NCBI GenBank assembly: GCA_913019975.1
Contig: CAJWBH010000020.1
Span: 1 to 64,000 of the forward strand
Reading direction: 5' to 3'
Source: Thalassolituus maritimus
GTDB taxonomy: Bacteria; Pseudomonadota; Gammaproteobacteria; Pseudomonadales; Oceanobacteraceae
Length of the DNA stretch: 64,000 nucleotides
Shown: piece after piece, positions 28,147-50,044 of the stretch
How positions within the stretch are numbered: position 1 is the stretch's first letter
How the letters are laid out: every line of letters starts with the position of its first letter
Position numbers and translations under genes: made by a program
The notes under the pieces: generated by a model
Database searches by the model: none
Seen by the model: the letters and a program-made list of their open reading frames with translations, nothing else
What the model was told of the DNA's origin: nothing

Positions 28147-29058
28147 CTATAGAGACAAGCGTCGCGCTTCTCGTGGGCGCTGACCTGTCTCCGTAAGGGG
28201 CTTGTAGTAGGCTTCCATGCGCTTCACCCGGCTGGCGTCACCCATAGTCGCGATCCCTTGTGTTTCATCGGTAAGCTGCAAGAGGCCCCACGGTGCTGTA
28301 ATAAGCAGATCGTCCTGTACTTCAGGGGAAACTCGCAAGCTGATACGGCTGCTGAGTCTCTGTTGTAATCGTAACAGTGGGTGGCGGTTAATGCCGCCTC
28401 GCTCAGAGGGAATCAGAATTTTCACCCGGCGCCTGTGTGAATCGAGAGCAAACTCTCTGACGGCATTGAGTGCTGCTTTGTCCCACCATAATGGGTGGGT
28501 TAAATCGCAGCAGGTGATAATAGCGTTGCGGGGGTGCATGGCGAGAATCATTTCGACCCAGCCCACAAGTGAAACTAAGTCGTTCTGCGGATAAATATTC
28601 TTATCGCGACCCGGGCGAAAAACATAGTTTGTTTCAGGCGCGCCAGGTGCCTTGTATATATTCAGGTGCGGAATCCCTGCATCATCAAAGAAACCCGCTT
28701 CAATATTAAAACCATTCTTCTGATAGAAGGGGACGGCATGCGCCTGAGCCGCGGCTCGAATTTCGCGGATTTTTAATTCGTTTCGGGCGAAGTCTTCGAT
28801 GGCATTGATTAATCGTGAGCCCCAGTGCTGCCCTCTGAACTCTCTGAGTACTGCCATGCGCCCGAATTTACCCGTGTGCATAAGTCGTGCGCAGCCTATC
28901 GGATTCCTGCCATCCAGTGCCAGAAAATGAATTGCTTCAATGTCGTATTCGTCCCACTCCAGTTTGGGCGGCACACTCTGTTCCTTAATGAACACTTCTT
29001 CCCGGATCTTTCGGATGATATCGCGGGATGCACGCCAGTCGGTGATGCGAATTTCCAA
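28147..29058 (-). CDS. GNAT acetyltransferase with extra C-terminal domain
   Basis: 303 residues. The first 150 form a GNAT N-acetyltransferase (FIKEQSVPPKLEWDEYD start; acetyl-CoA loop region LREFRGQHWGSRLI; FYQKNGFN). The C-terminal half (about 155-290) is a separate domain with FRPGRDKNIYPQNDLVSL and RRVKILIPSERGGINRHPLL; its layout recalls phospholipase D-like folds, but no HKD motif is present. I recall this two-domain architecture in other gammaproteobacteria, without known substrate. It converges on the DUF3429 gene. Confidence 0.8.
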   Translation of the reverse strand: MEIRITDWRASRDIIRKIREEVFIKEQSVPPKLEWDEYDIEAIHFLALDGRNPIGCARLMHTGKFGRMAVLREFRGQHWGSRLINAIEDFARNELKIREIRAAAQAHAVPFYQKNGFNIEAGFFDDAGIPHLNIYKAPGAPETNYVFRPGRDKNIYPQNDLVSLVGWVEMILAMHPRNAIITCCDLTHPLWWDKAALNAVREFALDSHRRRVKILIPSERGGINRHPLLRLQQRLSSRISLRVSPEVQDDLLITAPWGLLQLTDETQGIATMGDASRVKRMEAYYKPLTETGQRPREARRLSL

Positions 29059-33567: not shown

Positions 33568-36504
33568 GTGACCAGACCGCTTTTTTCTGTCAGTCGTTTA
33601 GCGTTTCCCGACAATATTTCCTTCTCCCGCTGGGTTGTTATCCCTCTGGTCGCTGCGCTGGCAGCATGCAGTGATAATGACAGCAGCTCGTCTGTGACAA
33701 CCATCAATCTGGATGTGCAGGTTGGTCAGGAAGATTTCAATGAAGCCATGCTCAGACGGGTAACTGTCGACGAAACCGGTATGCCTTCAGAGGTGCAGCC
33801 GGGAGTTCTTAGCTTTGCCCGCTTCACGACGGATGATGAGGGTCAGGCCGTAGTCTCTGCCGATGGTACTGAAATCGTCTATCTCGATGTCTATGGGCGT
33901 GAAAATGTCGATGGCACGTCGACGACTCGACGCTGCCAGCTCGTTGATGGTTGCGGCTCTGTCGCTTTCGGTGCTCAGTACACAATTGTTGGTGCGCCTG
34001 GTTGGCGATCGGTTGCTGTTGGTATCGAGGATGGCCAGCGCATTCGAATCACGCCACTCACTGATCTGGCAGCTCAGCTCGCTTTCGATCGTGTATACAG
34101 TCAAGATTCTGGTACCCAGCAGGATGCAGGTTGGTTAGATACTGGTTTCTATTCTGTGTATTCGACACTTCAAGCCGAATCACAGGTTTCACGCTTGTTT
34201 GGTATCGATTCTATCCAGAGTCGGGAACCCGCAGACCTGACTCAAATAGAGGAGTGGCGGGGCGCTAACCAGGCAGAAGCACAATATTCAATTCGCTATG
34301 GTGCTCTTTTAGCCGCGTGGCAGTCCTATGAATTGTCCTATACATCAACGACAGATCTGCCATCTTTCGCTTCAGCGGTTGCTGCTGACCTGGTGGCAAA
34401 TGACGGCCAGTTGATGCAGCGCGGTGGAGCGCAGACTCTCGCTCTTTACGATCTTTATGACGCAGCCATCAGTAACCTGAATGATTTAAATGTCACGAAT
34501 TCAACCGTGTCTGGTTATGTTGCCAGTGTTGTTGCTCAACTACAGACGGAGCGCGATGCGTTTGTAGATGGGGACCTGACGTCGGTTGCACCGGCTTCTT
34601 TGAGCTCGCTGCTCGGTGACGAGCTGGAGGATTATCAGTTAGGCCTTCAGCGCACGAAAGCCTTTGTGCAGGAACTTCGCGACTACGGCAACAGCTTTTT
34701 CGAAGACGGTTACCGGGAGCAACTGGATAGCTACGCCGATCTGTTGAGGAGTGTTGGTGAAGACAATGCTGAAAATCTCGATGAAATCACAACCGCAGTG
34801 TCGGAAATCGCTGGTTTCTACCGGGATTGCTATCTCAACAGTGGCTGCCCATCAGTCAGCCCGGAGTGGGAGTGGTATCAGAGTCATACCTACTCTGCGC
34901 CTGTATTGACGCTTAACGGCGGTGATTTTGAAGTATCACAGGCCGTTGCGGACATTAATTTGCTTGATGAAGATGATGCTCCGACCAGTTCCCGCGCAAT
35001 AGATATTCTGATGACTGGGACTTTAGTTGCCAATGGTCTGCGTCTCGAGCTGGATCATACCTACAGTGATGACGAAATCAGCAGCCCAAGCGGTTTGCGT
35101 ATTTTCTATGAAAATACCGTGACGGTTCTTCAGGATGAGGTGTCTGCCCCGGCATTGGCCTACCAGATTCGTTGGACCGATTTCACCCTTTACGATGCAG
35201 GCGATGTTGGTAGCGCTAACGAAACTGAGCTTACCGGTGCATTCAGTATCCTGTACCAGGGCGTCGATGACCCTGACGGTGTCTCCGGGCGTCGTTTTAA
35301 TATCTCAGAAGTGGTTCTGAATAGTCGCATCTCTGATGTTTATGAAGACGATAACGGCACGGATTCAAACATTACGACGGTATTTCTCACGGCCAGTGCC
35401 AATCAGGCAGCAGATTATTACCCAGAGTCTGAGTTTGCTTCGTTCAATGCATTCTTTGAGCGGGCACCCCTTTACCCTGAAGGGACAGTTGCTAGTGGGC
35501 TGGTTCAGTACCGTACTGGTACGCAAACCGTAAACGGGCGCGAGACTCAATATCTGGACTATTTCGTTGAAGGTGGGGACGATTACCGTTATCGATTCTA
35601 CCCAACGGTACAGCGCGAAGACGTCAGTGATATCGATGGTGATGGTGATACCGAAGAACTAATTGCTACGCATGATTATGAAGCGTGTTTACTGAGCGGT
35701 ACTGCTGAGTCGCCAGTGATTGAGCGTTGCCAGCCGAAGCAGCGGTTAAATGCTGAACAGGATCTGCAGAATGCGGTGAATGAGTTGTGGCAGATTGGCG
35801 TTTTCTCCCGCCCGGAAGTACCGGGGCAGGGTGTGTACTTCGTTGAATTCCCAGTTGAAGCTGCCGATGATCAAGGGTGCCTGACACTTTCTCCGTTGCC
35901 GACATCTCTATCTTCATTGGACGGCACCTTGTACAGAAGCGCGCAATTGGGCCTGTCGAATGCACGTTTTACCAGTGAAGTCGTGCTCGACTACTCAACG
36001 GCGACTGAACCGAAAACGCTTGTCGATATTCAGGTGACAGCCCCATACAGTGAACAGGTTGATGTGTCGCTTTCAGTGTCACATGACTATACGAGCGTCA
36101 ATACTACGGGTCTCTATCAGGGCGTGGGCGCTGACCTTGATCGTCTGATTTTCGATTTCAGTACTGAGAGCGGTACGGTTGAAGCCACGAGCCTGTCTGT
36201 ATTTAAAGACGGTGTTGAACTCTCTCTCGCTGATGGCTCAACCGACACGGTGGACAGCGAAATTATCCTGGGCAGCAACCTTGATTTGGTCGATGGTGCA
36301 CCGGTTTATCGTTATATCGTCGGTGATGATGGCGAGTACCGTCGCTGTGTTGTGTCAAACACGGCCGAGCCTTCGTTCAGTCGCGATCCTCAGGAAGCCG
36401 TCTACGTGCTGAATTATCGCGATAAGGTTTACGGAAAAATTGTCTATGAAAGCGGTGTCTGGATCATCCGTTATATCGATGGCACCTGGGAGTCACTGAA
36501 CTGA
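33568..36504 (+). CDS. Very large lipoprotein of unknown function (paralogue A)
   Basis: 978 residues from a GTG preceded by GAGG. A lipoprotein signal ends in the lipobox LAAC (C34), followed by a Ser/Asp-rich linker; no Asp at +2, so outer-membrane sorting is expected. The rest is predicted periplasmic or surface-exposed, acidic and beta-rich with one helical section (about 280-430). It is paralogous along its length to the lipoprotein at 39418: shared landmarks are RCQLVDGCGSVAFG, SQVSRLFGIDSI, YSIRYGALLAAW, a DIDGDGDTEE calcium-loop-like motif, FSRPEVPGQGVYFVEF and a C-terminal YIDGTW. No known domain recognised. Confidence 0.85.
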   Translation: MTRPLFSVSRLAFPDNISFSRWVVIPLVAALAACSDNDSSSSVTTINLDVQVGQEDFNEAMLRRVTVDETGMPSEVQPGVLSFARFTTDDEGQAVVSADGTEIVYLDVYGRENVDGTSTTRRCQLVDGCGSVAFGAQYTIVGAPGWRSVAVGIEDGQRIRITPLTDLAAQLAFDRVYSQDSGTQQDAGWLDTGFYSVYSTLQAESQVSRLFGIDSIQSREPADLTQIEEWRGANQAEAQYSIRYGALLAAWQSYELSYTSTTDLPSFASAVAADLVANDGQLMQRGGAQTLALYDLYDAAISNLNDLNVTNSTVSGYVASVVAQLQTERDAFVDGDLTSVAPASLSSLLGDELEDYQLGLQRTKAFVQELRDYGNSFFEDGYREQLDSYADLLRSVGEDNAENLDEITTAVSEIAGFYRDCYLNSGCPSVSPEWEWYQSHTYSAPVLTLNGGDFEVSQAVADINLLDEDDAPTSSRAIDILMTGTLVANGLRLELDHTYSDDEISSPSGLRIFYENTVTVLQDEVSAPALAYQIRWTDFTLYDAGDVGSANETELTGAFSILYQGVDDPDGVSGRRFNISEVVLNSRISDVYEDDNGTDSNITTVFLTASANQAADYYPESEFASFNAFFERAPLYPEGTVASGLVQYRTGTQTVNGRETQYLDYFVEGGDDYRYRFYPTVQREDVSDIDGDGDTEELIATHDYEACLLSGTAESPVIERCQPKQRLNAEQDLQNAVNELWQIGVFSRPEVPGQGVYFVEFPVEAADDQGCLTLSPLPTSLSSLDGTLYRSAQLGLSNARFTSEVVLDYSTATEPKTLVDIQVTAPYSEQVDVSLSVSHDYTSVNTTGLYQGVGADLDRLIFDFSTESGTVEATSLSVFKDGVELSLADGSTDTVDSEIILGSNLDLVDGAPVYRYIVGDDGEYRRCVVSNTAEPSFSRDPQEAVYVLNYRDKVYGKIVYESGVWIIRYIDGTWESLN

Positions 36505-36511
36505 TTCTGCA

Positions 36512-36532
36512 AGCACCGGCAGCGCCGGTGCT
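36512..36532 (+). terminator. Weak hairpin after the first large lipoprotein gene
   Basis: AGCACCGGC pairs perfectly with GCCGGTGCT around AGC but no T-tract follows, so it may be an mRNA-end stabiliser or a weak terminator. Confidence 0.45.
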
Positions 36533-36552
36533 ATTGGGGTTCCCGTGTTGAA

Positions 36553-36771
36553 TCAGAGTGTTCCGTAGGAGATAGGAAGCTGTATATTCACCCGTGTATT
36601 GGGATTGTATCCGTTGCGCGGGCGCTTCCAGCCGGTCTCCCCACTAATTCCTTCTTTAATGCGGTGAATCTTTCCGCCGCTCGTGAGGTAAGCCTGTACG
36701 TCAGCTTCCAGTTGCTGACGAAGCTCTTCGGGACTTGCTTTACGTCTATCTGCACCTTTCTTCGAAGCCAT
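36553..36771 (-). CDS. Small basic conserved-looking protein
   Basis: 72 residues with a Lys/Arg-rich N-terminus (MASKKGADRRKASPEELR), a helix (QQLEADVQAYLTSGGKIHRI) and a polar tail rich in Asn and Pro. No membrane span. The segment YLTSGGKIHRI recalls small proteins of unknown role common in marine gammaproteobacteria, from memory. It converges on the lipoprotein gene and diverges from glcB. Confidence 0.65.
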   Translation of the reverse strand: MASKKGADRRKASPEELRQQLEADVQAYLTSGGKIHRIKEGISGETGWKRPRNGYNPNTRVNIQLPISYGTL

Positions 36772-37022
36772 ATCGGTTCTCCTGTGCGCCGCGTCAGATC
36801 TGGTTGTAAGTCAGACTGCTAACGGCAGAGTCAATGTCAGTTACTTCGGGTGCGGCCAAGCTCCTGGGTCATTATAAACACCTTGTATATTGTATGTATA
36901 GGTTTTGTATTGCTTTTGGCAGGCAATGGTATGGAGGTTTTTGAGGGGCTGCCCGGGAATATCTGGCACGGAGTCGGAGAGGGGGGCTGCGATACGTGGT
37001 CGCGATACGAAAACAGTTGCGT

Positions 37023-37028
37023 TATACT
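37023..37028 (+). promoter_or_regulatory. glcB: Possible -10 element of glcB
   Basis: TATACT followed by CCCGG, 76 bases before the start codon. The -35 region is not recognisable. The 333-base gap 36772-37104 holds this element and the leader; I see no gene in it. Confidence 0.3.
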
Positions 37029-37104
37029 CCCGGCCCTGAAATTTCACCGGTCTAAGATGCAGCCGTACATTTGGCTGTGTCCCCAAAAGAGTTGAGGCTA
37101 AACA

Positions 37105-39279
37105 ATGACAGAATACGTTCAGAAGGGTGGACTCCAGATCGCCCAGGAGCTGTACGATTTCATCAATGACAAAGCAATGCCAGGCACTGGTATTGAACAG
37201 GATGCGTTCTGGGCGAGCTTTGATGCTATTGCCAATGAACTGGCTCCAAAGAACAAGGCGCTGCTGGCTAAGCGTGATGATCTGCAGGCCAAAATCGATG
37301 CTTACCACACTGAGCGTAAAGGTCAGGCTCACAACGCTGCAGAATACAAAGCGTTCCTGCAGGAAATCGGTTACCTGCTGCCAGAAGGCGAAGACTTCGA
37401 AGCAACTACCGCAAACGTCGAGCCAGAGATCGGCCAGATGGCTGGTCCTCAGCTGGTAGTACCGGTTATGAATGCTCGTTTCGCTCTGAACGCTGCGAAC
37501 GCTCGTTGGGGCTCACTGTACGATGCTCTTTACGGCACTAACGTCATTTCTGAAGAAGACGGTGCTGAGAAAGGTCAGGGCTACAACAAAGTACGTGGTG
37601 ACAAAGTTATCGCTTATGCGCGTAACTTCCTGAACGAATCAGCCCCACTGGCGGCTGGCGATCACGCTGACAGCACTAAGTACGCTATCGACGCAGGTAA
37701 ACTGGTCGTTACGCTGAAAGACGGCAGCACTACCAGCCTGAAAGATGCTTCTCAGCTGGTTGGCTTTAAAGGCGAAATGGCTGCACCAGAAGCGATTCTG
37801 CTGGTTAACAACGGCCTGCACTTCGAAATTCAGATCGACGCAACCAGCCCAATCGGTTCAACCGACGCTGCTGGCGTAAAAGACGTTCTGATGGAAGCGG
37901 CACTGACCACCATTATGGACTGTGAAGACTCTGTTGCTGCTGTTGATGCAGAAGACAAAGTCGTGACCTACGGTAACTGGCTCGGCCTGATGAAGGGTGA
38001 CCTGGCGGAAGACGTAACCAAGGGCGGCAAGACTTTCACCCGTACTATGAACCCAGACCGTGAGTACACTGGCCTGAACGGTGAAACCGTTAAGCTGAAA
38101 GGTCGCTCAATGCTGTTCGTTCGTAACGTGGGTCACCTGATGACTAACCCTGCGATCCTGCTGGCCGATGGCAGCGAGATCCCAGAAGGCATCATGGACG
38201 GCATGATGACTACCCTGATCGCTATGCACGATCTGAAGGGTAACTCCCCGTTCCAGAACTCGACTACCGGTTCTGTCAACATCGTTAAGCCTAAGATGCA
38301 CGGCCCAGAAGAAGTGGCATTCGCCAACGAACTGTTCGGTCGCATCGAAGACGCACTGGGTCTGCCACGCTTCACTATGAAGATGGGGATCATGGACGAA
38401 GAGCGTCGCACCACGGTTAACCTGAAAGAATGTATCCGTTCTGCGAAAGACCGTGTTGTATTCATCAACACTGGCTTCCTGGACCGTACTGGTGACGAAA
38501 TCCACACGTCTATGCTGGCAGGTCCGTTTGTACCTAAGACTGTCATGAAGCAGCAGACCTGGATCAACGCCTACGAAAACTGGAACGTTGATACTGGTCT
38601 GGAAACAGGTCTGCAGGGCCGTTCACAGATCGGTAAAGGCATGTGGCCTATCCCTGATGAGATGGGCATGATGATGGAGCAGAAGATCGGCCATCCTAAG
38701 TCTGGCGCGAACACCGCATGGGTTCCATCTCCGACTGCCGCTACTCTGCACGCGATGCACTATCACCAGGTAGACGTATTCGCTGTTCAGAACGAACTGA
38801 AGAGCCGTGAGCACGCGTCTGTTGACGACATCCTGAGCATCCCTCTGATGACCGCTGAAGAAGCTTCAGCTCTGACTGAAGAACAGATTCAGAAGGAAAT
38901 CGACAACAACTGTCAGGGTATCCTGGGTTACGTTGTTCGCTGGGTTGATGCAGGTGTTGGTTGTTCTAAAGTGCCAGACATCAACAACGTTGGCCTGATG
39001 GAAGACCGCGCAACGCTGCGTATCTCTTCTCAGCACGTTGCTAACTGGCTGGAACACGGTATCTGTACCCGCGAACAGGTTGAAGACAGCCTGAAGCGCA
39101 TGGCTGCGGTTGTTGATGGTCAGAATGCGGGTGACGCTTCTTATATCAATATGGCGCCAGGCTTCGACACTATCGCGTTTAAAGCGGCGTCTGACCTGAT
39201 CTTCAAAGGTAAAGAGCAGCCAAGTGGTTATACCGAGCCGCTGCTGCACGCATACCGTCTGAAGTTCAAAGCTCAGTAA
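37105..39279 (+). CDS. glcB: Malate synthase G
   Basis: Condenses glyoxylate with acetyl-CoA to malate, the second step of the glyoxylate shunt needed for growth on acetate, fatty acids or alkanes. 724 residues, the monomeric G isoform with its inserted alpha/beta domain. Catalytic motifs include [44 protein letters not shown] and GQSQIG-type [10 protein letters not shown] near residue 510, with the conserved cysteine region [19 protein letters not shown]. Codon use is strongly biased like acnB. It is a single-gene unit inserted between two paralogous lipoprotein genes. Confidence 0.97.
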
Positions 39280-39296
39280 GTAGCGTCAAGCACTGT

Positions 39297-39325
39297 AAAA
39301 AACCCGGCAAATGCCGGGTTTTTTT
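39297..39325 (+). terminator. glcB: Terminator of glcB
   Basis: AAAAAACCCGGC pairs with GCCGGGTTTTTT around AAAT. Confidence 0.95.
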
Positions 39326-39417
39326 GTGTAAAGGGGCAGTAAAACACCTGTCTGAGAGCTATCCTGTGCCTACTCCAAACGTAGAATGACATAGAACAGA
39401 ATAAGAGTAATAAGAAG

Positions 39418-42400
39418 ATGGTTCATAAGCTTACCTCAGTAATCCTTATCGGCGTGCTCCTTCAGGCCTGTTCAGGGAACTCCAGTTCTACCCGCACCGT
39501 CAGCGGTGAAGAGGAGACTTATGGTATTAGCGGTCGAATAGGGACGGCGACCTGGGGTAGCCGAATCAGTGCAACACCGATCAACTATGAGGGTGGCCCG
39601 ACGCTCATAGAAAACGATAGCGGTAATCTTGTATACGATGGTGCAGCTTCGCAGTCTTCTCAAACGGGTACTTACGAGCTGACGGCAGAGGCCGAAGACG
39701 TATCAGGATCGTTTATCTTTATCGCGAATACGGACAACGGGGATGTGTTCTATCGCTGTGAGCGAGTACAGGGGTGCGACTCGCTCGCTTACGGGAAATA
39801 TGTTCCGCTTCCAGATGATCTGGATGTCCGGGCTGGCGTCGGTGAATTGCTCGACGGCATGACGGTCAATGTCAACTGGATTACTGATATTGCAAGCAGT
39901 ATGGCCAGAACGGTTTATATCGACGCAGTCACGAACGGCCTTTCTGCAGACGACCGGGCGGACATCAATCAGGCTGTGTTGGATGACATCGAGAAAGCGA
40001 AAACAGGTGTGTATAACCAATACACGATGGAGTTGGCCAATCTTCATGTCTCTGAGCTCTTCGGTCTGACGGATATTATTTCGTCGCCTGTAGTTGCCCC
40101 CAGTCAGATTACGCAAGTTGAGACAGTTTCAGGTGACGCTCTGGTCGAAGGGGTCTATTACGGTGCGTTAATTGCTGCTTTGCCGTATCTCGCTGATTCG
40201 GCTAACACCGACTTCGTAACGAAACTGGGTGAAATTACCGGTGATGTAATTGATCGGCGCGGGCAGTTGTTGGAGAAAAAAAGTAACGCCTCGGATGTTG
40301 TAACTAAGTTCAAGATTTTCTCTGCGGCCAGCACAATACTCCGGGATAACATCAATTACTTTAACGGGCTTGGTGCCAGAGTCCCTGCTGGTGCAGTCAC
40401 AGCTCTCGAACGGCTCGACGGCGTCGCAGCCTCTATGAGAGAGGACGTTGAAACATCGGTAGATGTCGATGTGCCAGCCAGGTTAGCGGGTTGGCGTACT
40501 GCAATAGAAAACAGCAAATATTTTCTGACGGACCTTACTGCGGCAGTGAAGAATTTCTGGGGCTATGATGAAAATCAGCCCAGCTTCATCGATCCTGTTC
40601 ATGGACGTCGCGTTGATTCATATTATCTGGCGCATGAAACAGCGCTGAACACAGTGGCAGACCTGGCATTTGGGCCTACTGGTGTTCTCAATGAAATATT
40701 GGAAGGTGCTGAGATCCTTGCTCGTTGTGAGTTCGGAGAGGGTGATTGCACCCCGCCAGTGGGGTTCGCCATCGAAACTGATGAGAGCGATTCGGCAGGG
40801 CTTCCTAGTGACCGTGTACTTATTGACGGTTCACTTCGGCTTGTTATGCGCCCGATTGAAACCACGGATGCGGATGCCGGGCTCTATAATGTGTTTGATT
40901 TCGAAATAGAGTCGGCTGATAACCCTGATGAGGGGGTTGATGCTATTCCAGCCGAAATTAAGAATGCTTTGGCACTAGGTAATGGTAAAAAGCTTTACTG
41001 GTACACGGAGGCCATCTCTGACGGAAGCATCACTACTCGTCCTTATGTTCGGGTGTTTTATGAGGATAGCTACGCGTCGCCTCCTGCTGGATCATTTCTG
41101 GATGACTCAGATCCTTCACACGTTGCGCCAACGCAGATTGCGATTGTCTGGCCGTTGGTCAGGTTTGAAGGCAATATCGATGGCGCCCAGGCGGGCGATA
41201 ATGGTGAACATGAATTCAACGCGCTCATTGAGGCCAACCTGGTAGGGGTCAAAGACCCGCTCGATGATGCCTCCCAGACCAGGTATAACCCAGTTACATT
41301 TGTCGTCCGTGCAAGGTCCACGCTGGAACCGGATGCAGAAAACAGGACTGATCTGAACGTTCAGCTCAGAACGACGAATTCTTCATCGTATTACCCAACC
41401 AGTAAATGGCCTGCTACCCATGAGTTTTTCCTTGGGCGTCCAGATGCTCCGACGGAAATTACAGATCTCGTTGAAAGCCTGTATCGCGACCAGACCGTCT
41501 TATCGGATGGTCGGGTTATAGAATATTTTGATGAAGAGCTTCGTGGGAGGGACTTCATTAGTCGGATCAAGTTGTACCCCTACGACTCTAGTACCAATAC
41601 GACCCGTTCCGAATCCTGTAACGTATCCTGGGTGGATGTCGATATGGACGGGGATGATGAAAGAGTTGAGCAGAGTTGCGATACAGTTATTGAGCTGGCC
41701 GGAGAAGTAACCCTTGATGAGCTTCTCGAGAGAAATTTCGAAAATAATGTTTTATCCAGATACAGCGTGCCTGGCAACGGGATATATGAAATCGATTTGT
41801 CTACGTCTGCAATTGTATCTGGTACTGAGTATCAGGGTCTGACAGAAGGCGTAGAGTATGGGCCGTTCAGCGGTACCTTCTATGATGATATAGAGCTGGG
41901 GATAGATCGTCTTACTGCCGTTGCAGAAAGTTACCTCAAAGACCCAGAAGACGAAGCGCTGATTCCTGTTATCTTCGAGCTAGCGCTTGAACGACAGGTT
42001 GAGGACGAGTTCGCATTGAGTGCCTCGTACGGCTTCGGCTCCGAGGAAACTTATGAAAATATCAGCAACCAGTTAGGTGTTGTTGCTGGCGGAGATGCAC
42101 AGGGCTTTTATCTCGAATTGGCCGTCTCGGAAGAGCAGATCAGTGATGGGGAAGGCGGACTGAAAACCATCGAAGTCGAACGTGGTTACTGGTTGATTTC
42201 CCGCTCAAACGTATCTATGGGTGGTACTGATCAATCGGTTCTTGCTCAAATAGCTACTCGTACGGAATACACGCAAGGCAACGATGAAACGGCCTGCGGC
42301 TTTAACGACCGCGATAAATTGTCAGCAGCAGCGCCAACAGATGCAGATTCAAATGATGGCTGCGAAGCAGTCGCCTATCTGACGGTACGTGGTGCACTCG

Positions 42401-42480
42401 TAGGCACAATTCGCGAAGAGCGCGAGAACGTATTTGTCGCCCGTTTCGTTGATGGCACCTGGATGATTATTGGTGATTAA
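39418..42480 (+). CDS. Very large lipoprotein of unknown function (paralogue B)
   Basis: 1020 residues. A short lipoprotein signal ends in LQAC (C18) with Ser at +2, so outer-membrane localisation is expected. It shares the plan of the lipoprotein at 33568: YRCERVQGCDSLAYG, NLHVSELFGLTDI, EGVYYGALIAAL, a DVDMDGDDERVE calcium-loop-like motif, SRYSVPGNGIYEIDL and a C-terminal FVDGTW. The middle (about 190-410) is helical and the rest beta-rich and acidic. The 3' end overlaps the start of the beta-barrel gene, so the two are probably made together. Codon use is less biased than in glcB. Confidence 0.85.
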   Translation: MVHKLTSVILIGVLLQACSGNSSSTRTVSGEEETYGISGRIGTATWGSRISATPINYEGGPTLIENDSGNLVYDGAASQSSQTGTYELTAEAEDVSGSFIFIANTDNGDVFYRCERVQGCDSLAYGKYVPLPDDLDVRAGVGELLDGMTVNVNWITDIASSMARTVYIDAVTNGLSADDRADINQAVLDDIEKAKTGVYNQYTMELANLHVSELFGLTDIISSPVVAPSQITQVETVSGDALVEGVYYGALIAALPYLADSANTDFVTKLGEITGDVIDRRGQLLEKKSNASDVVTKFKIFSAASTILRDNINYFNGLGARVPAGAVTALERLDGVAASMREDVETSVDVDVPARLAGWRTAIENSKYFLTDLTAAVKNFWGYDENQPSFIDPVHGRRVDSYYLAHETALNTVADLAFGPTGVLNEILEGAEILARCEFGEGDCTPPVGFAIETDESDSAGLPSDRVLIDGSLRLVMRPIETTDADAGLYNVFDFEIESADNPDEGVDAIPAEIKNALALGNGKKLYWYTEAISDGSITTRPYVRVFYEDSYASPPAGSFLDDSDPSHVAPTQIAIVWPLVRFEGNIDGAQAGDNGEHEFNALIEANLVGVKDPLDDASQTRYNPVTFVVRARSTLEPDAENRTDLNVQLRTTNSSSYYPTSKWPATHEFFLGRPDAPTEITDLVESLYRDQTVLSDGRVIEYFDEELRGRDFISRIKLYPYDSSTNTTRSESCNVSWVDVDMDGDDERVEQSCDTVIELAGEVTLDELLERNFENNVLSRYSVPGNGIYEIDLSTSAIVSGTEYQGLTEGVEYGPFSGTFYDDIELGIDRLTAVAESYLKDPEDEALIPVIFELALERQVEDEFALSASYGFGSEETYENISNQLGVVAGGDAQGFYLELAVSEEQISDGEGGLKTIEVERGYWLISRSNVSMGGTDQSVLAQIATRTEYTQGNDETACGFNDRDKLSAAAPTDADSNDGCEAVAYLTVRGALVGTIREERENVFVARFVDGTWMIIGD

Positions 42481-43558
42481 GAAGGTCATACTGCTGTCTT
42501 CTGCTATCGCAATAGCGAATATTGCTGATGCGACAGCAGGGCAGTCTGAGGAGCACTTAGGCGAGGTCCGCTTCGCGTTGTCCGCTGAGGCAAGCTCTGA
42601 GCCCGTTCCGATTGATCAGATGATCGAAGGCTGGGAGCAGGACGCTGATACCGGCGAGTACGCGTATGCGGATATGAGTCTCGCAGCATCGGCGTCTTAC
42701 CGGAACTTCACGTTGAATGCGGAGCGTCGCTGGTTCTATTCTCTTAAGTTTTCTCCTGACACAACAGCGGTCTACCTGGACGCCGAGTTTGGAATAGAAA
42801 CCCAGCAGGATAGAGACCTTAATCTGGTGGCCAAGGTATTTCAGGCTCGCGGTATTGGTGGTTCCTATCACTTTGAGGGTAAGAACTGGACGGTGTCACC
42901 CGCTTTTATGGTGTACAAGCTGATTCATTATCAGTTTGGTTCGTTTGTTGGGAGAAGCTTTGCTGACGAGGGCTCTAATTTCTCGGCAAGCCTGTCGTAC
43001 TATTTTGACGAGTATCGCTTTCCTTCTTTCGATACGCTTCCTGAATATGAAGACCCGCAAGGCACTGCATCTCAGGAGTGGTTTGGTTACAGTGCATCTC
43101 TTTCAGGAACCTGGGCCCCCACGGATGAGCTGGAACTTGCTCTGCAAGTGAAAGATCTCTGGAATCTTCTCGATATGGGTAACTCAGGACATCGTTCTAT
43201 ATGCGCAGAAGTCGGTGAAGTTACTAATCCAGTCTGTTCGAGTGGAGGAGCTGCCAGTGGCGACGATAACCCGCAGACACTGGAAACATCGATTAAGTCT
43301 ACCGTAATCGCGAACGGGGTTTATAAGCCGCTCGATGTATACGTTCAGTACTACTGGCATGACGTTTACCGGAACCTATCTGTCGAAAAACGATATCCTT
43401 TTGGTAATGGTGAGGTGGGTATTGTTGGAACGTCGAAGCGTCAGCTCGGTGCTGCTATATACTGGCGGGGGCTCTCAGCCAGCTACATCGTAGATGATCT
43501 TAATATCAAACAAGTCCGCGATGCCCGTATAGGGTTGTCGTATCAGTATCGCTGGTAA
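42473..43558 (+). CDS. Outer-membrane beta-barrel protein coupled to the lipoprotein
   Basis: About 361 residues. The start lies inside the end of the lipoprotein gene: GTG at 42473 (or TTG at 42470) overlaps its stop by 8-11 bases. A Sec signal peptide (IKKVILLSSAIAIANIADATAG) is followed by alternating strands rich in Tyr, Trp and Phe (LTLNAERRWFYSLKF-like pattern), and the last strand ends in YQYRW with the terminal aromatic residue recognised by the Bam machinery. By length about 12-14 strands are possible. Family not recognised. The coupling suggests that the lipoprotein and the barrel work as one complex. Confidence 0.8.
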   Translation: MIKKVILLSSAIAIANIADATAGQSEEHLGEVRFALSAEASSEPVPIDQMIEGWEQDADTGEYAYADMSLAASASYRNFTLNAERRWFYSLKFSPDTTAVYLDAEFGIETQQDRDLNLVAKVFQARGIGGSYHFEGKNWTVSPAFMVYKLIHYQFGSFVGRSFADEGSNFSASLSYYFDEYRFPSFDTLPEYEDPQGTASQEWFGYSASLSGTWAPTDELELALQVKDLWNLLDMGNSGHRSICAEVGEVTNPVCSSGGAASGDDNPQTLETSIKSTVIANGVYKPLDVYVQYYWHDVYRNLSVEKRYPFGNGEVGIVGTSKRQLGAAIYWRGLSASYIVDDLNIKQVRDARIGLSYQYRW

Positions 43559-43646
43559 GCTGATGCCGGCGATTTCAGGCTAAGTCACCACTGCGTCAGA
43601 CGTGCAATTCCGGTATCATGCCGGCATCAATCAGACAGGATGCAGC

Positions 43647-45107
43647 ATGTACCTTGAGTACTTCGGCTTAGACAAACTGCCATTTACCATCTCTCCGGAT
43701 CCGGATTTTCTGTACCCTTCACCTGGGCATCAGGAAGCGTTGGCACATCTGAGCTATGCCCTGACGGATCAGGGCGGGCTTATCTGCCTTACTGGCGAAG
43801 TGGGTACGGGTAAAACGACACTGTGCCGGGCGCTTATGGCGTCTATCCCAGAAGGTGATCATGTTGCATATATATTCAATCCGCAGCTCTCGCCTATAGA
43901 GTTAATGCAAAGCATCTGCGATGACCTTGGCATCGCCTATGAAAGAAGCGCAACGCTCAAGGAAGTTTACGCATCGATCAATGAAGCACTGGTGAGCTTC
44001 TACGGGAAACATCAGCGTATTATTTGCGTGATCGACGAAGCCCAGTCCATGCCTGTCGCGCTATTGGAGCAGGTTCGCCTGCTGACTAATCTGGAAACAG
44101 ACCGGGAAAAGCTACTGACACTCGTTCTGGTAGGGCAGCCAGAGCTTCGCGATCTGCTTAAGCGTCATGATCTACGCCAGCTGAATCAGCGCATTACTGC
44201 TCGTTATCACCTCGATTTGCTGAGTCTGACCGAAACCTCCGAATACGTTGAGCACCGCCTGGTCTGCGCTGGCGGGAATCAGATGTTATTTGATCCTGCC
44301 GCGATCGAGACTATCTGGCGGGCCAGTGAGGGAACTCCACGCCTGATTAACAGTATTTGCGATAGAGCGCTATTGGGTGCTTATGCCACGGGCAGTCACC
44401 TGGTCAGTTCGGATATCGCAAGTCAGGCGATTATTGAAGTGCTTGGGGCAGATTATGATGCAGTTCCTCAAGTTCATGTAGGAAAAGGGGCGGCTGGCAT
44501 TGCAGAGACCTCAGGCAAATACATATTAAAAAGTGCACTCGCTTTCTGCGCGGCTGCTGTGTTTGTCTTTGCGGGTGTGATTGCGTACCAGAATATTCCT
44601 GCACTTAAGACGGTCTCATTAGACCGCAGTGATCCGTATGCCGTACTTGAGGCCTCCCGCACTGAGGGCGCCGCGAATTGTGACTCTTCAGGTTGGCGGT
44701 GTATTCCGGTCGACTGGGATATCTCTGAATTGCGCGAGCTGAATCAGATCACGGTCGTCAGAGTGGGGAGCGGGGGTGCAGAAGCAGAATGGTATGACCT
44801 TGAAGAATACGAGCGTGGGTATGCTGGTGAGGCTGTGATTTTATGGCAGGCGCCTGCCGACTACACCAGTGCTGTAAAGCCAGGGGAAACAGCTCCAGTG
44901 ATTCGTTGGGTGCGCTCGCGTCTCGGCGCTGGCTGGGATAAGGAGTGGACCAGTATCGGGCCGGGTGGTGTTCAGGTTGAGGTCAACCCGGAATTTTACG
45001 ACCCATTGCTAGAACGAGCAGTTGCTGAATTTCAGATCGCTGAAGGTTTAAAAGCAGATCGGATTATTGGGCCGAAAACCCTGATGTATCTGCAGGCGAG
45101 GCAATAG
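43647..45107 (+). CDS. gspA: General secretion pathway protein A (ExeA-type ATPase)
   Basis: 486 residues from MYLEYFGLDKLPF, preceded by AGGA. AAA ATPase domain with Walker A GEVGTGKTTL and Walker B IICVIDEAQSM, then a membrane span (about 290-310, ALAFCAAAVFVFAGVIAY) and a periplasmic part ending in a peptidoglycan-binding domain (ADRIIGPKTLMYLQ). GspA works with GspB to let the type II secretin be placed through the cell wall. gspB follows directly. The rest of a gsp operon is not in the window. Confidence 0.9.
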   Translation: MYLEYFGLDKLPFTISPDPDFLYPSPGHQEALAHLSYALTDQGGLICLTGEVGTGKTTLCRALMASIPEGDHVAYIFNPQLSPIELMQSICDDLGIAYERSATLKEVYASINEALVSFYGKHQRIICVIDEAQSMPVALLEQVRLLTNLETDREKLLTLVLVGQPELRDLLKRHDLRQLNQRITARYHLDLLSLTETSEYVEHRLVCAGGNQMLFDPAAIETIWRASEGTPRLINSICDRALLGAYATGSHLVSSDIASQAIIEVLGADYDAVPQVHVGKGAAGIAETSGKYILKSALAFCAAAVFVFAGVIAYQNIPALKTVSLDRSDPYAVLEASRTEGAANCDSSGWRCIPVDWDISELRELNQITVVRVGSGGAEAEWYDLEEYERGYAGEAVILWQAPADYTSAVKPGETAPVIRWVRSRLGAGWDKEWTSIGPGGVQVEVNPEFYDPLLERAVAEFQIAEGLKADRIIGPKTLMYLQARQ

Positions 45108-45108
45108 C

Positions 45109-45771
45109 ATGTCATACATCCTCGATGCATTGAAGAAATCCGAACAAGAGCGGGATGAGCGCAACCCGGCCCAAATGCCGCCTAAAAAGGGCCTGATCTC
45201 AGAATCTGCTGAGACTGGAAAAGTGGCTTCAGAGCACGAGCAGCAACGTAATACGGACAGTAATACTTCTGCTCGCATGGGAATTTCTGCCGCTCTGGCC
45301 GTTGTGCTTATCTTAGGTGCTATCGCTACAGCCTTTTATTTTTCGCCCGCTGACAAGCAGGGCGCTACACCATCGGCTGCCGAAGAGACTTCGCTTTCTG
45401 AAACGGACTCAGAACCTGCAGCGGTTATGACGACGGCAGAGCTTTCTGCAACTCAAATCGTGGTAGCAGAAAGTGCAATTGAGGATATTGAGGCGGAACA
45501 AAGCGACGTTGAGCCAAAAGCGCCTCTTAAAGAAGCGCGAGCACCGTTCGAAGCATTGGAGCGAATTCCGGATCTGAATATTACGGGGCATACGTTCAGT
45601 TCCGTGCCAGCTAAGCGAACAGTGACCATGAACGACCGTCTCTGGCGAGAAGGTGAGCAATTGGTGGACGGTGTAGTTCTGCAGGAGATTACGCGCGACG
45701 GCATTCTGCTCGACGTTTCCGGGTGGCCTGTAGTGATTGGTCGTACGCGCGGATGGAAGGCTATTCGCTGA
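45109..45771 (+). CDS. gspB: General secretion pathway protein B
   Basis: 220 residues. The hallmark N-terminus MSYILDALKKSEQERD is followed by a membrane span (about 59-79, MGISAALAVVLILGAIATAF), an acidic linker and the C-terminal periplasmic GspB domain (LNITGHTFSSVPAKRTVTMN to SGWPVVIGRTRGW). It starts one base after the gspA stop and overlaps the dinG start by one base. Partner of GspA in secretin insertion. Confidence 0.9.
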   Translation: MSYILDALKKSEQERDERNPAQMPPKKGLISESAETGKVASEHEQQRNTDSNTSARMGISAALAVVLILGAIATAFYFSPADKQGATPSAAEETSLSETDSEPAAVMTTAELSATQIVVAESAIEDIEAEQSDVEPKAPLKEARAPFEALERIPDLNITGHTFSSVPAKRTVTMNDRLWREGEQLVDGVVLQEITRDGILLDVSGWPVVIGRTRGWKAIR

Positions 45772-49414: not shown

Positions 49415-50044
49415 TTAACGTGGCGAATTAAATTGAAACCGGATCTCGTCAGGCGTCACGTCAATATCAAAATCTCCGTTAGGAGTAGAGTGCGATTCTG
49501 GCGCCAGGTTCCCGGCGTTCGGAATAACGATTTCGAATGAATACGGGTTGATAGCAAGCTCGGATGGTGGGACCGCACCGTCTGGGTACACCGCGTTTGA
49601 AAGACTCAGGTTTTCGTAATCGATCGGAGTGCCTTCGTCGAGCCCCAGTGCATCGCGAAGTCTCGTCTCATTAACGAACTTGTCGTGATCATAAATAGGC
49701 GTATCAGGAATCGTCTGAGAAATACGCGCGAACTCATATTCTGACTGAGCCGTCATGTCATAAGGTATCGCCTCATACTGCTCACGCATATCAATCGTGG
49801 ACTGCGACGTGGATTCGCCCTCAGAAAAGTCGTCTTCAAGTGGCGATACACGAATAATGCTGCGACGCTCATTCTGTTGAGTAGGCGCCTTCTTGCGCAC
49901 AATCACGGTGGTATCGCGGATGTAGGACTCGGTCATCTCTTCAGCCGGAATTTCGGTGATTTCGGCGAATGTGAGAGGAGATGCAGCGATAGAGAGGCTC
50001 AGCACGGCGCCGGCGAGGACTGAGAAGTTATTGATATCTTTCAT
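49415..50044 (-). CDS. Secreted protein of unknown function
   Basis: 209 residues. Sec signal peptide (VLAGAVLSLSIAASPLTFA) with cleavage near residue 27, then an acidic, proline-rich chain without membrane spans or cysteines, probably periplasmic. The middle carries RRSIIRVSPLEDDF and the end DIDVTPDEIRFQFNSPR. No family recognised. It stands alone, divergent from the lol operon; 199 bases lie between the two starts. Confidence 0.7.
   Translation of the reverse strand: MKDINNFSVLAGAVLSLSIAASPLTFAEITEIPAEEMTESYIRDTTVIVRKKAPTQQNERRSIIRVSPLEDDFSEGESTSQSTIDMREQYEAIPYDMTAQSEYEFARISQTIPDTPIYDHDKFVNETRLRDALGLDEGTPIDYENLSLSNAVYPDGAVPPSELAINPYSFEIVIPNAGNLAPESHSTPNGDFDIDVTPDEIRFQFNSPR

Follow-up and report, generated by a model that had tools for sequence, protein, structure and literature searches.

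The passage of lipoproteins across the outer membrane is incompletely understood, and passages of PMC7857515 expect further surface-lipoprotein machineries, with Spirochaetes and Bacteroidetes in mind. The closest known design to the one described here is that of Slam, the type 11 secretion system (T11SS), in which an outer-membrane barrel of the SlipAM (DUF560) family is encoded beside a lipoprotein. According to passages of PMC5449769, 185 of 353 Slam homologues adjoin a lipobox gene, and part of PMC12282271 describes cluster 3 T11SS loci with two or three DUF1194 genes, some of them lipidated, beside one barrel. We analysed a stretch of 64,000 nucleotides (nt) from Thalassolituus (contig CAJWBH010000020.1, positions 1 to 64,000; hereafter the window), which encodes two giant lipoproteins, A and B, and, overlapping the gene of B, a predicted outer-membrane beta-barrel, C. 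The adjacency of lipoprotein and barrel genes is conserved well outside the window, and the pair looks like an unstudied cell-surface system; we found no published description of it in titles and abstract openings, a scope that leaves most subscription journals and preprints outside.

The pair may work like Slam but is not Slam. SlipAM/DUF560 (PF04575) was matched by none of 44 barrels of the family at E-values (E) up to 0.1, nor by C at E up to 1, and C, with its 362 amino acids (aa), has no room for an N-terminal TPR region, ~45 residues lying between the signal region, as judged by eye, and the main strand-like peaks. No TPR family is found among the Pfam matches of the 44 barrels, whereas all Slams combine TPR with DUF560 in the study PMC5449769, according to the passages drawn on here. 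The C-terminal eight-stranded barrel domain of TbpB-like Slam cargo is likewise absent from the Pfam matches of 37 lipoproteins. The NalP route and the route of RcsF with outer-membrane proteins (RcsF-OMP) also pair a lipoprotein with a barrel, and passages of PMC7857515 state that the lipoprotein reaches the surface together with the barrel in both. NalP, however, is a single polypeptide, and no fusion was found among the loci read. RcsF pairs with BamA and an OMP such as OmpA, both of them general partners, and not with the product of a dedicated neighbour gene. SusCD and other TonB-dependent pairs use a large plugged receptor, whereas C has 362 aa and no such family is matched by the 44 barrels (E up to 0.1). 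Type V autotransporters carry passenger and barrel in one polypeptide, whereas lipoprotein and barrel are encoded by separate open reading frames (ORFs) in the 60 pairs described below.

Two giant lipoproteins and a predicted barrel

A (33568..36504, plus strand, GTG start, 978 aa) and B (39418..42480, plus strand, 1020 aa) are paralogues by sequence alignment, as an initial sequence-only reading had proposed: they align over most of their length with 24% identity (BLASTP E 9e-27, 104 bits). The same reading had listed five colinear landmarks, and in a 31-row alignment C..V.GC, the SRLFGI/SELFGL block, YGAL.AA and the terminal DGTW (36478-36489 in A, 42451..42462 in B) indeed occupy the same columns in both proteins. 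The fifth, D.DGD, does not: it lies at column 1118 in A but at column 1145 in B, and such a motif occurs in 6 of 8 A-clade rows vs 1 of 14 B-clade rows. In the pairwise BLASTP alignment the D.DGD of A does stand opposite that of B; we nevertheless rejected a calcium loop as a feature common to both. A carries the lipobox LAAC with Cys34 (33658..33669, also found by lipobox scan), and B carries LQAC with Cys18 (39460..39471), followed by a Ser-rich stretch. Further downstream in B, CERVQGC (39757..39777) holds Cys114 and Cys120, both invariant in the 31-row alignment. In a tree of 40 lipoproteins the A clade (16 rows) and the B clade (11 rows) are separate, each with 100/100 support, and both contain the genera labelled g1, g4, g5, g7 and g8, so that the A/B duplication predates the split of these genera.

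Neither A, B nor C matches any Pfam or NCBIfam family at E up to 1, in line with the earlier failure to recognise a known domain. No Pfam or NCBIfam match covers the lipoprotein family as represented by the 37 members scanned; scattered matches comprise CarboxypepD_reg in three members (best E 1.3e-5) and, in one member each, TSP_3 (4e-6), MtsC (4.7e-11) and an Omp28-related selenoprotein model (3.1e-10). A sequence search of solved structures with profiles A1 and A2 gave nothing credible (best E 0.59 and 0.044).

The gene of C (42470..43558, plus strand) begins inside that of B, whose stop codon occupies 42478-42480; with TTG 42470 or GTG 42473 as start candidates the overlap is 8-11 nt, and the overlap claimed at the outset is thus confirmed. 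We predict C to be an outer-membrane beta-barrel from its amphipathic strand pattern. The family-averaged beta moment of 0.91 exceeds that of shuffled columns (0.59 +/- 0.05; z 6.6), and 43 of the 44 barrels score above z 2 singly, compared with -0.8 to 1.6 for the controls glcB, gspA, dinG and purB, 1.5 for A and 1.9 for B. Strand-like peaks number 18 from residue 70 onwards, preceded by two more (residues 30 and 54). The motif ASSEPVPIDQMIEGW (42590..42634) precedes the main run of peaks, and residues S43 and W55 are conserved in at least 90% of 27 rows. The chain ends in W, F or Y in 21 of the 44 barrels and in L, I or M in 17. Four Pfam families are matched by the 44 barrels at E up to 0.1; among these, weak matches to DUF5723 (PF18990; 5 of 44, best E 2.6e-4), which we take to be an outer-membrane barrel family, and to Porin_2 (1 of 44, E 0.014) point the same way. 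The remaining 39 barrels, including C itself, are without a DUF5723 match at that threshold. Plasmid records gave no match to the two barrels searched.

Lipoprotein-barrel adjacency across order and class

In the order, 39 of 322 genomes have a match to a profile built from 27 barrels, G272 contributing just one weak fragment. In the class, the 44-barrel profile A5 finds 18 of 369 genomes, with weak matches in two. Outside the window we surveyed 74 barrel loci. Of these, 27 belong to the window's family and are a subset of those found; 31 come from other families of the order, where G272 alone was left out of the counts; and 16 come from elsewhere in the class, where only the two weakly matching genomes were set aside. 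The cut-off excluded barrel matches weaker than 1e-15 (L193; L192 gave none). As to whether the barrel gene always follows a member of this lipoprotein family, the gene immediately before the barrel, on the same strand, encodes a lipoprotein relative in 60 of the 74 loci (19/27, 28/31 and 13/16, respectively), with gaps between the two genes of -68 to +148 nt. The class count is independent, because its loci were found by A5 alone and scored with a lipoprotein profile (A6) built without them; among other ORFs of at least 400 aa in these loci, 3 of 41 match A6, and two of these are extra lipoproteins upstream of the same barrel. The order count is partly circular, because A6 contains many of those neighbours, and the narrower lipoprotein profile A2 matches the direct neighbour in 10 of 30 order loci. 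Two lipoproteins precede one barrel at four loci (L142, L144, L181 and L184). A 1186-aa open frame in G416 was considered as a one-gene fusion and rejected, since the 383-aa barrel ORF lies in another frame than the lipoprotein.

By pattern, 57 of the 60 paired lipoproteins carry a lipobox; two of the other three run off a contig end (L183, L190), and the third (L176) has no Cys at the expected place. Ser or Gly follows the lipobox Cys in 48 of the 57, Asp or Glu in 3, and the first 20 mature residues average 67% G/S/T/N/D. The paired lipoproteins have a median length of 860 residues (range 487-1160). Glu or Asp stands directly after the lipobox Cys (CEN, CDN) in the paired lipoproteins of genus g3 (L102, L103, L136). 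In E. coli such a residue can mean retention in the inner membrane, which would conflict with a partner in the outer membrane, unless this genus sorts lipoproteins differently.

With B as query a match is found in 29 of 93 related genomes, with C in 37 and with A in 35; the counts for A and B include paralogue cross-matches, as in genus g2, in which the B query finds only A. All matches to A and B, and all but one to C (G054), fall inside the window's own family. B, C, gspA and gspB occur together in g1, g5, g7 and g8, and lipoprotein, C and gspA in g3, which has a single lipoprotein with its barrel; at the one g4 locus read, no gspA is labelled. B was not found in g2, where A and C persist apart from one another, and in g6 C directly follows glcB, a third lipoprotein type being encoded elsewhere in the genome. 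The block purB, A, glcB, B, C, gspA, gspB, dinG is largely conserved in the family. A second barrel subfamily coexists with the main type in genomes of this family, at L108 (G036:C36), L162 (G009:C41), L163 (G003:C1) and L169 (G013:C7); lipoproteins of 1121-1154 aa lie upstream in three of these four loci, and the fourth is cut by a contig end.

A candidate outer-membrane module and its alternatives

With confidence a little short of even, we propose that B and C form a dedicated outer-membrane module: the barrel would position or retain the lipoprotein, most probably at the surface. B would be made with a lipoprotein signal peptide, acylated on Cys18 and sent to the outer membrane, where C would be inserted as a beta-barrel of roughly 14-18 strands. 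C would bind B and then pass it through or hold it at the membrane, and the bulk of B would most likely be exposed on the outside of the cell, in the way that Slam displays its cargo lipoproteins. A may descend from an old duplication of B, having lost its own barrel or never possessed one, and may share C. We favour a barrel that serves the lipoprotein because loci with two lipoproteins recur, as expected if one barrel serves clients, and because the lipoproteins have Ser/Gly-rich starts. A broader claim, which we regard as possible but doubtful, is that the pair constitutes a delivery route for surface lipoproteins that is separate from Slam and lacks both TPR and DUF560. In this reading a small dedicated barrel would export lipoproteins of ~500-1160 residues and sometimes serve two of them, and the route would be widespread in the Gammaproteobacteria. 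A carrier barrel would have very large proteins as its cargo, and a channel barrel would have a new kind of partner in the lipoproteins. The pair, which matches nothing in the family libraries scanned, is simple enough for deletion and reconstitution tests.

Several observations weigh against such a module. Lipoproteins that fill nearly the whole profile occur without an adjoining barrel, namely A and those of L170-L174, and the five genomes of L170-L174 have no match anywhere to the 27-barrel profile. Conversely, 14 loci have a barrel without an upstream lipoprotein: five in g2, two in g6 and three in genus g202, together with L161 and L165, which lie beside contig ends, L163, where a 615-aa ORF without profile match runs off the contig end, and L167. 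In g202 the lipoprotein search gave nothing in G429 and G657 and only weak matches in G555, with at most two candidates per genome scored. Orphan barrels argue for a function that the barrel has alone, and barrel-less lipoproteins argue likewise for the lipoprotein. The partner trees agree (Spearman 0.79 over 61 pairs, with 0 of 2000 permutations as high), which is suggestive of co-evolution, but this value is not corrected for species descent, and a within-genome paralogue test was mixed, with agreements of 59/59, 52/59, 15/59 and 1/59. AlphaFold offered no usable model of C (predicted local distance difference test (pLDDT) 28.1, 4-row alignment), and its barrel fold therefore stays a prediction; the model of B is poor (pLDDT 36.4, 7-row alignment) and gives only a hint of its layout: beta structure at the N-terminus, helices in the middle and a second half rich in beta structure.

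Obligate two-way pairing was rejected on account of A and the lipoproteins of L170-L174. Since lipoproteins without a barrel exist, a barrel is a better guide to the presence of a lipoprotein than a lipoprotein is to that of a barrel. Profile A6 has matches in 95 of the 369 class genomes, mostly over the N-terminal part only; L196 is not counted among the barrel-less lipoproteins, as its downstream contig end lies within 161 nt. The undescribed lipoprotein/barrel system suggested by the sequence-only reading thus holds up in its aligned lipoproteins and in the adjacency of the two genes, and has to be amended to a one-way coupling with some lone barrels and no shared calcium loop. The three lipoprotein-less barrels of g202 (L187, L188, L189) lie downstream of a gene whose product contains MHIHILGICGTFMGG and, by eye, resembles Mpl. 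At L195:551-4043 an 844-aa lipoprotein relative overlaps by 56 nt a 339-aa ORF that has no barrel-profile or Pfam match and a beta score of z 2.2; this ORF is possibly another kind of partner.

The conserved adjacency would fit equally well if C were a channel or porin-like transporter and B an accessory to it, either a ligand catcher at the surface or a periplasmic plug or assembly partner, with C not being the exporter of B. SusD and LptE are examples of such accessory lipoproteins of outer-membrane barrels. The lipoprotein-less barrels of g202 and g2 make sense if C acts alone, and the weak Porin_2 and DUF5723 matches fit a channel as well. Besides the lone Porin_2 match, however, no transporter family such as TonB-dependent receptors or FadL appears among the matches of the 44 barrels at E up to 0.1, and the genes further upstream, compared by eye, vary between loci and suggest no common substrate pathway; we consider a channel rather unlikely. 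The position of gspA and gspB behind C, which recurs in most family loci read, raises the further thought that B and A are type II secretion cargo and C a helper or bystander. The window's own genome has a GspD above cut-off, as do 35 of 38 barrel-positive genomes of the order vs 209 of 284 others (Fisher p 0.014, not corrected for relatedness and with the weak fragment of G272 left out), and one of the 44 barrels weakly matches the NCBIfam GspN model (E 0.0013). Outside the family, however, gspA or gspB is labelled at one barrel locus only (L167, among loci up to L175). Three barrel genomes that belong to one family (G059, G100 and G132; 96, 89 and 79% complete) each carry a lipoprotein-barrel pair without a GspD above cut-off. 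The link of the module to type II secretion is therefore weak, and we judge a cargo role improbable.

Synteny alone could keep B beside C within the family, where the purB-to-dinG block is largely conserved, and A, B and C might then be mere neighbours in a stable chromosomal block that do not work together. Outside the family, by contrast, the other labelled genes of the block are absent from the loci up to L175, again with L167 as the one exception, and lipoprotein and barrel are nevertheless adjacent in 41 of 47 loci (the partly circular 28/31 and the independent 13/16), which makes mere neighbourhood highly improbable. A dedicated pair, with the barrel positioning or retaining the lipoprotein, remains the reading that we tentatively favour.

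Neighbouring genes in the window

B shares 99% identity with a protein of T. maritimus DSM 24913, and Thalassolituus is a marine oil-degrading bacterium. A JmjC/ROXA-like gene, purB (a name assigned by eye) and a PTPS-domain gene precede A on the minus strand; the plus strand continues with A, glcB, B, C, gspA, gspB and a dinG-like helicase gene. The gene between A and B is glcB, malate synthase G (37105..39279, plus strand; PF01274, PF20658, PF20659, PF20656). Downstream of C follow gspA (43602..45107, plus strand), with an AAA domain and a sub-threshold peptidoglycan-binding match, as a neighbour conserved within the family, and gspB (45109..45771, plus strand), with a T2SSB domain. The coordinates and lengths of the two lipoproteins, their lipoboxes, the intervening glcB and the gspA-gspB pair after C are all as first described from the sequence. 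A promoter and terminator scan gave 3 promoter-like sites vs 9.4 expected and 9 terminator-like sites vs 7.9 expected. Further away, a minus-strand gene at 49415-50044 encodes a 209-aa product without a Pfam match at E up to 0.001, with an N-terminus that by eye is signal-like. A second minus-strand gene, at 28147-29058, encodes a DUF7931 domain fused to a GNAT acetyltransferase domain, as assigned by Pfam.

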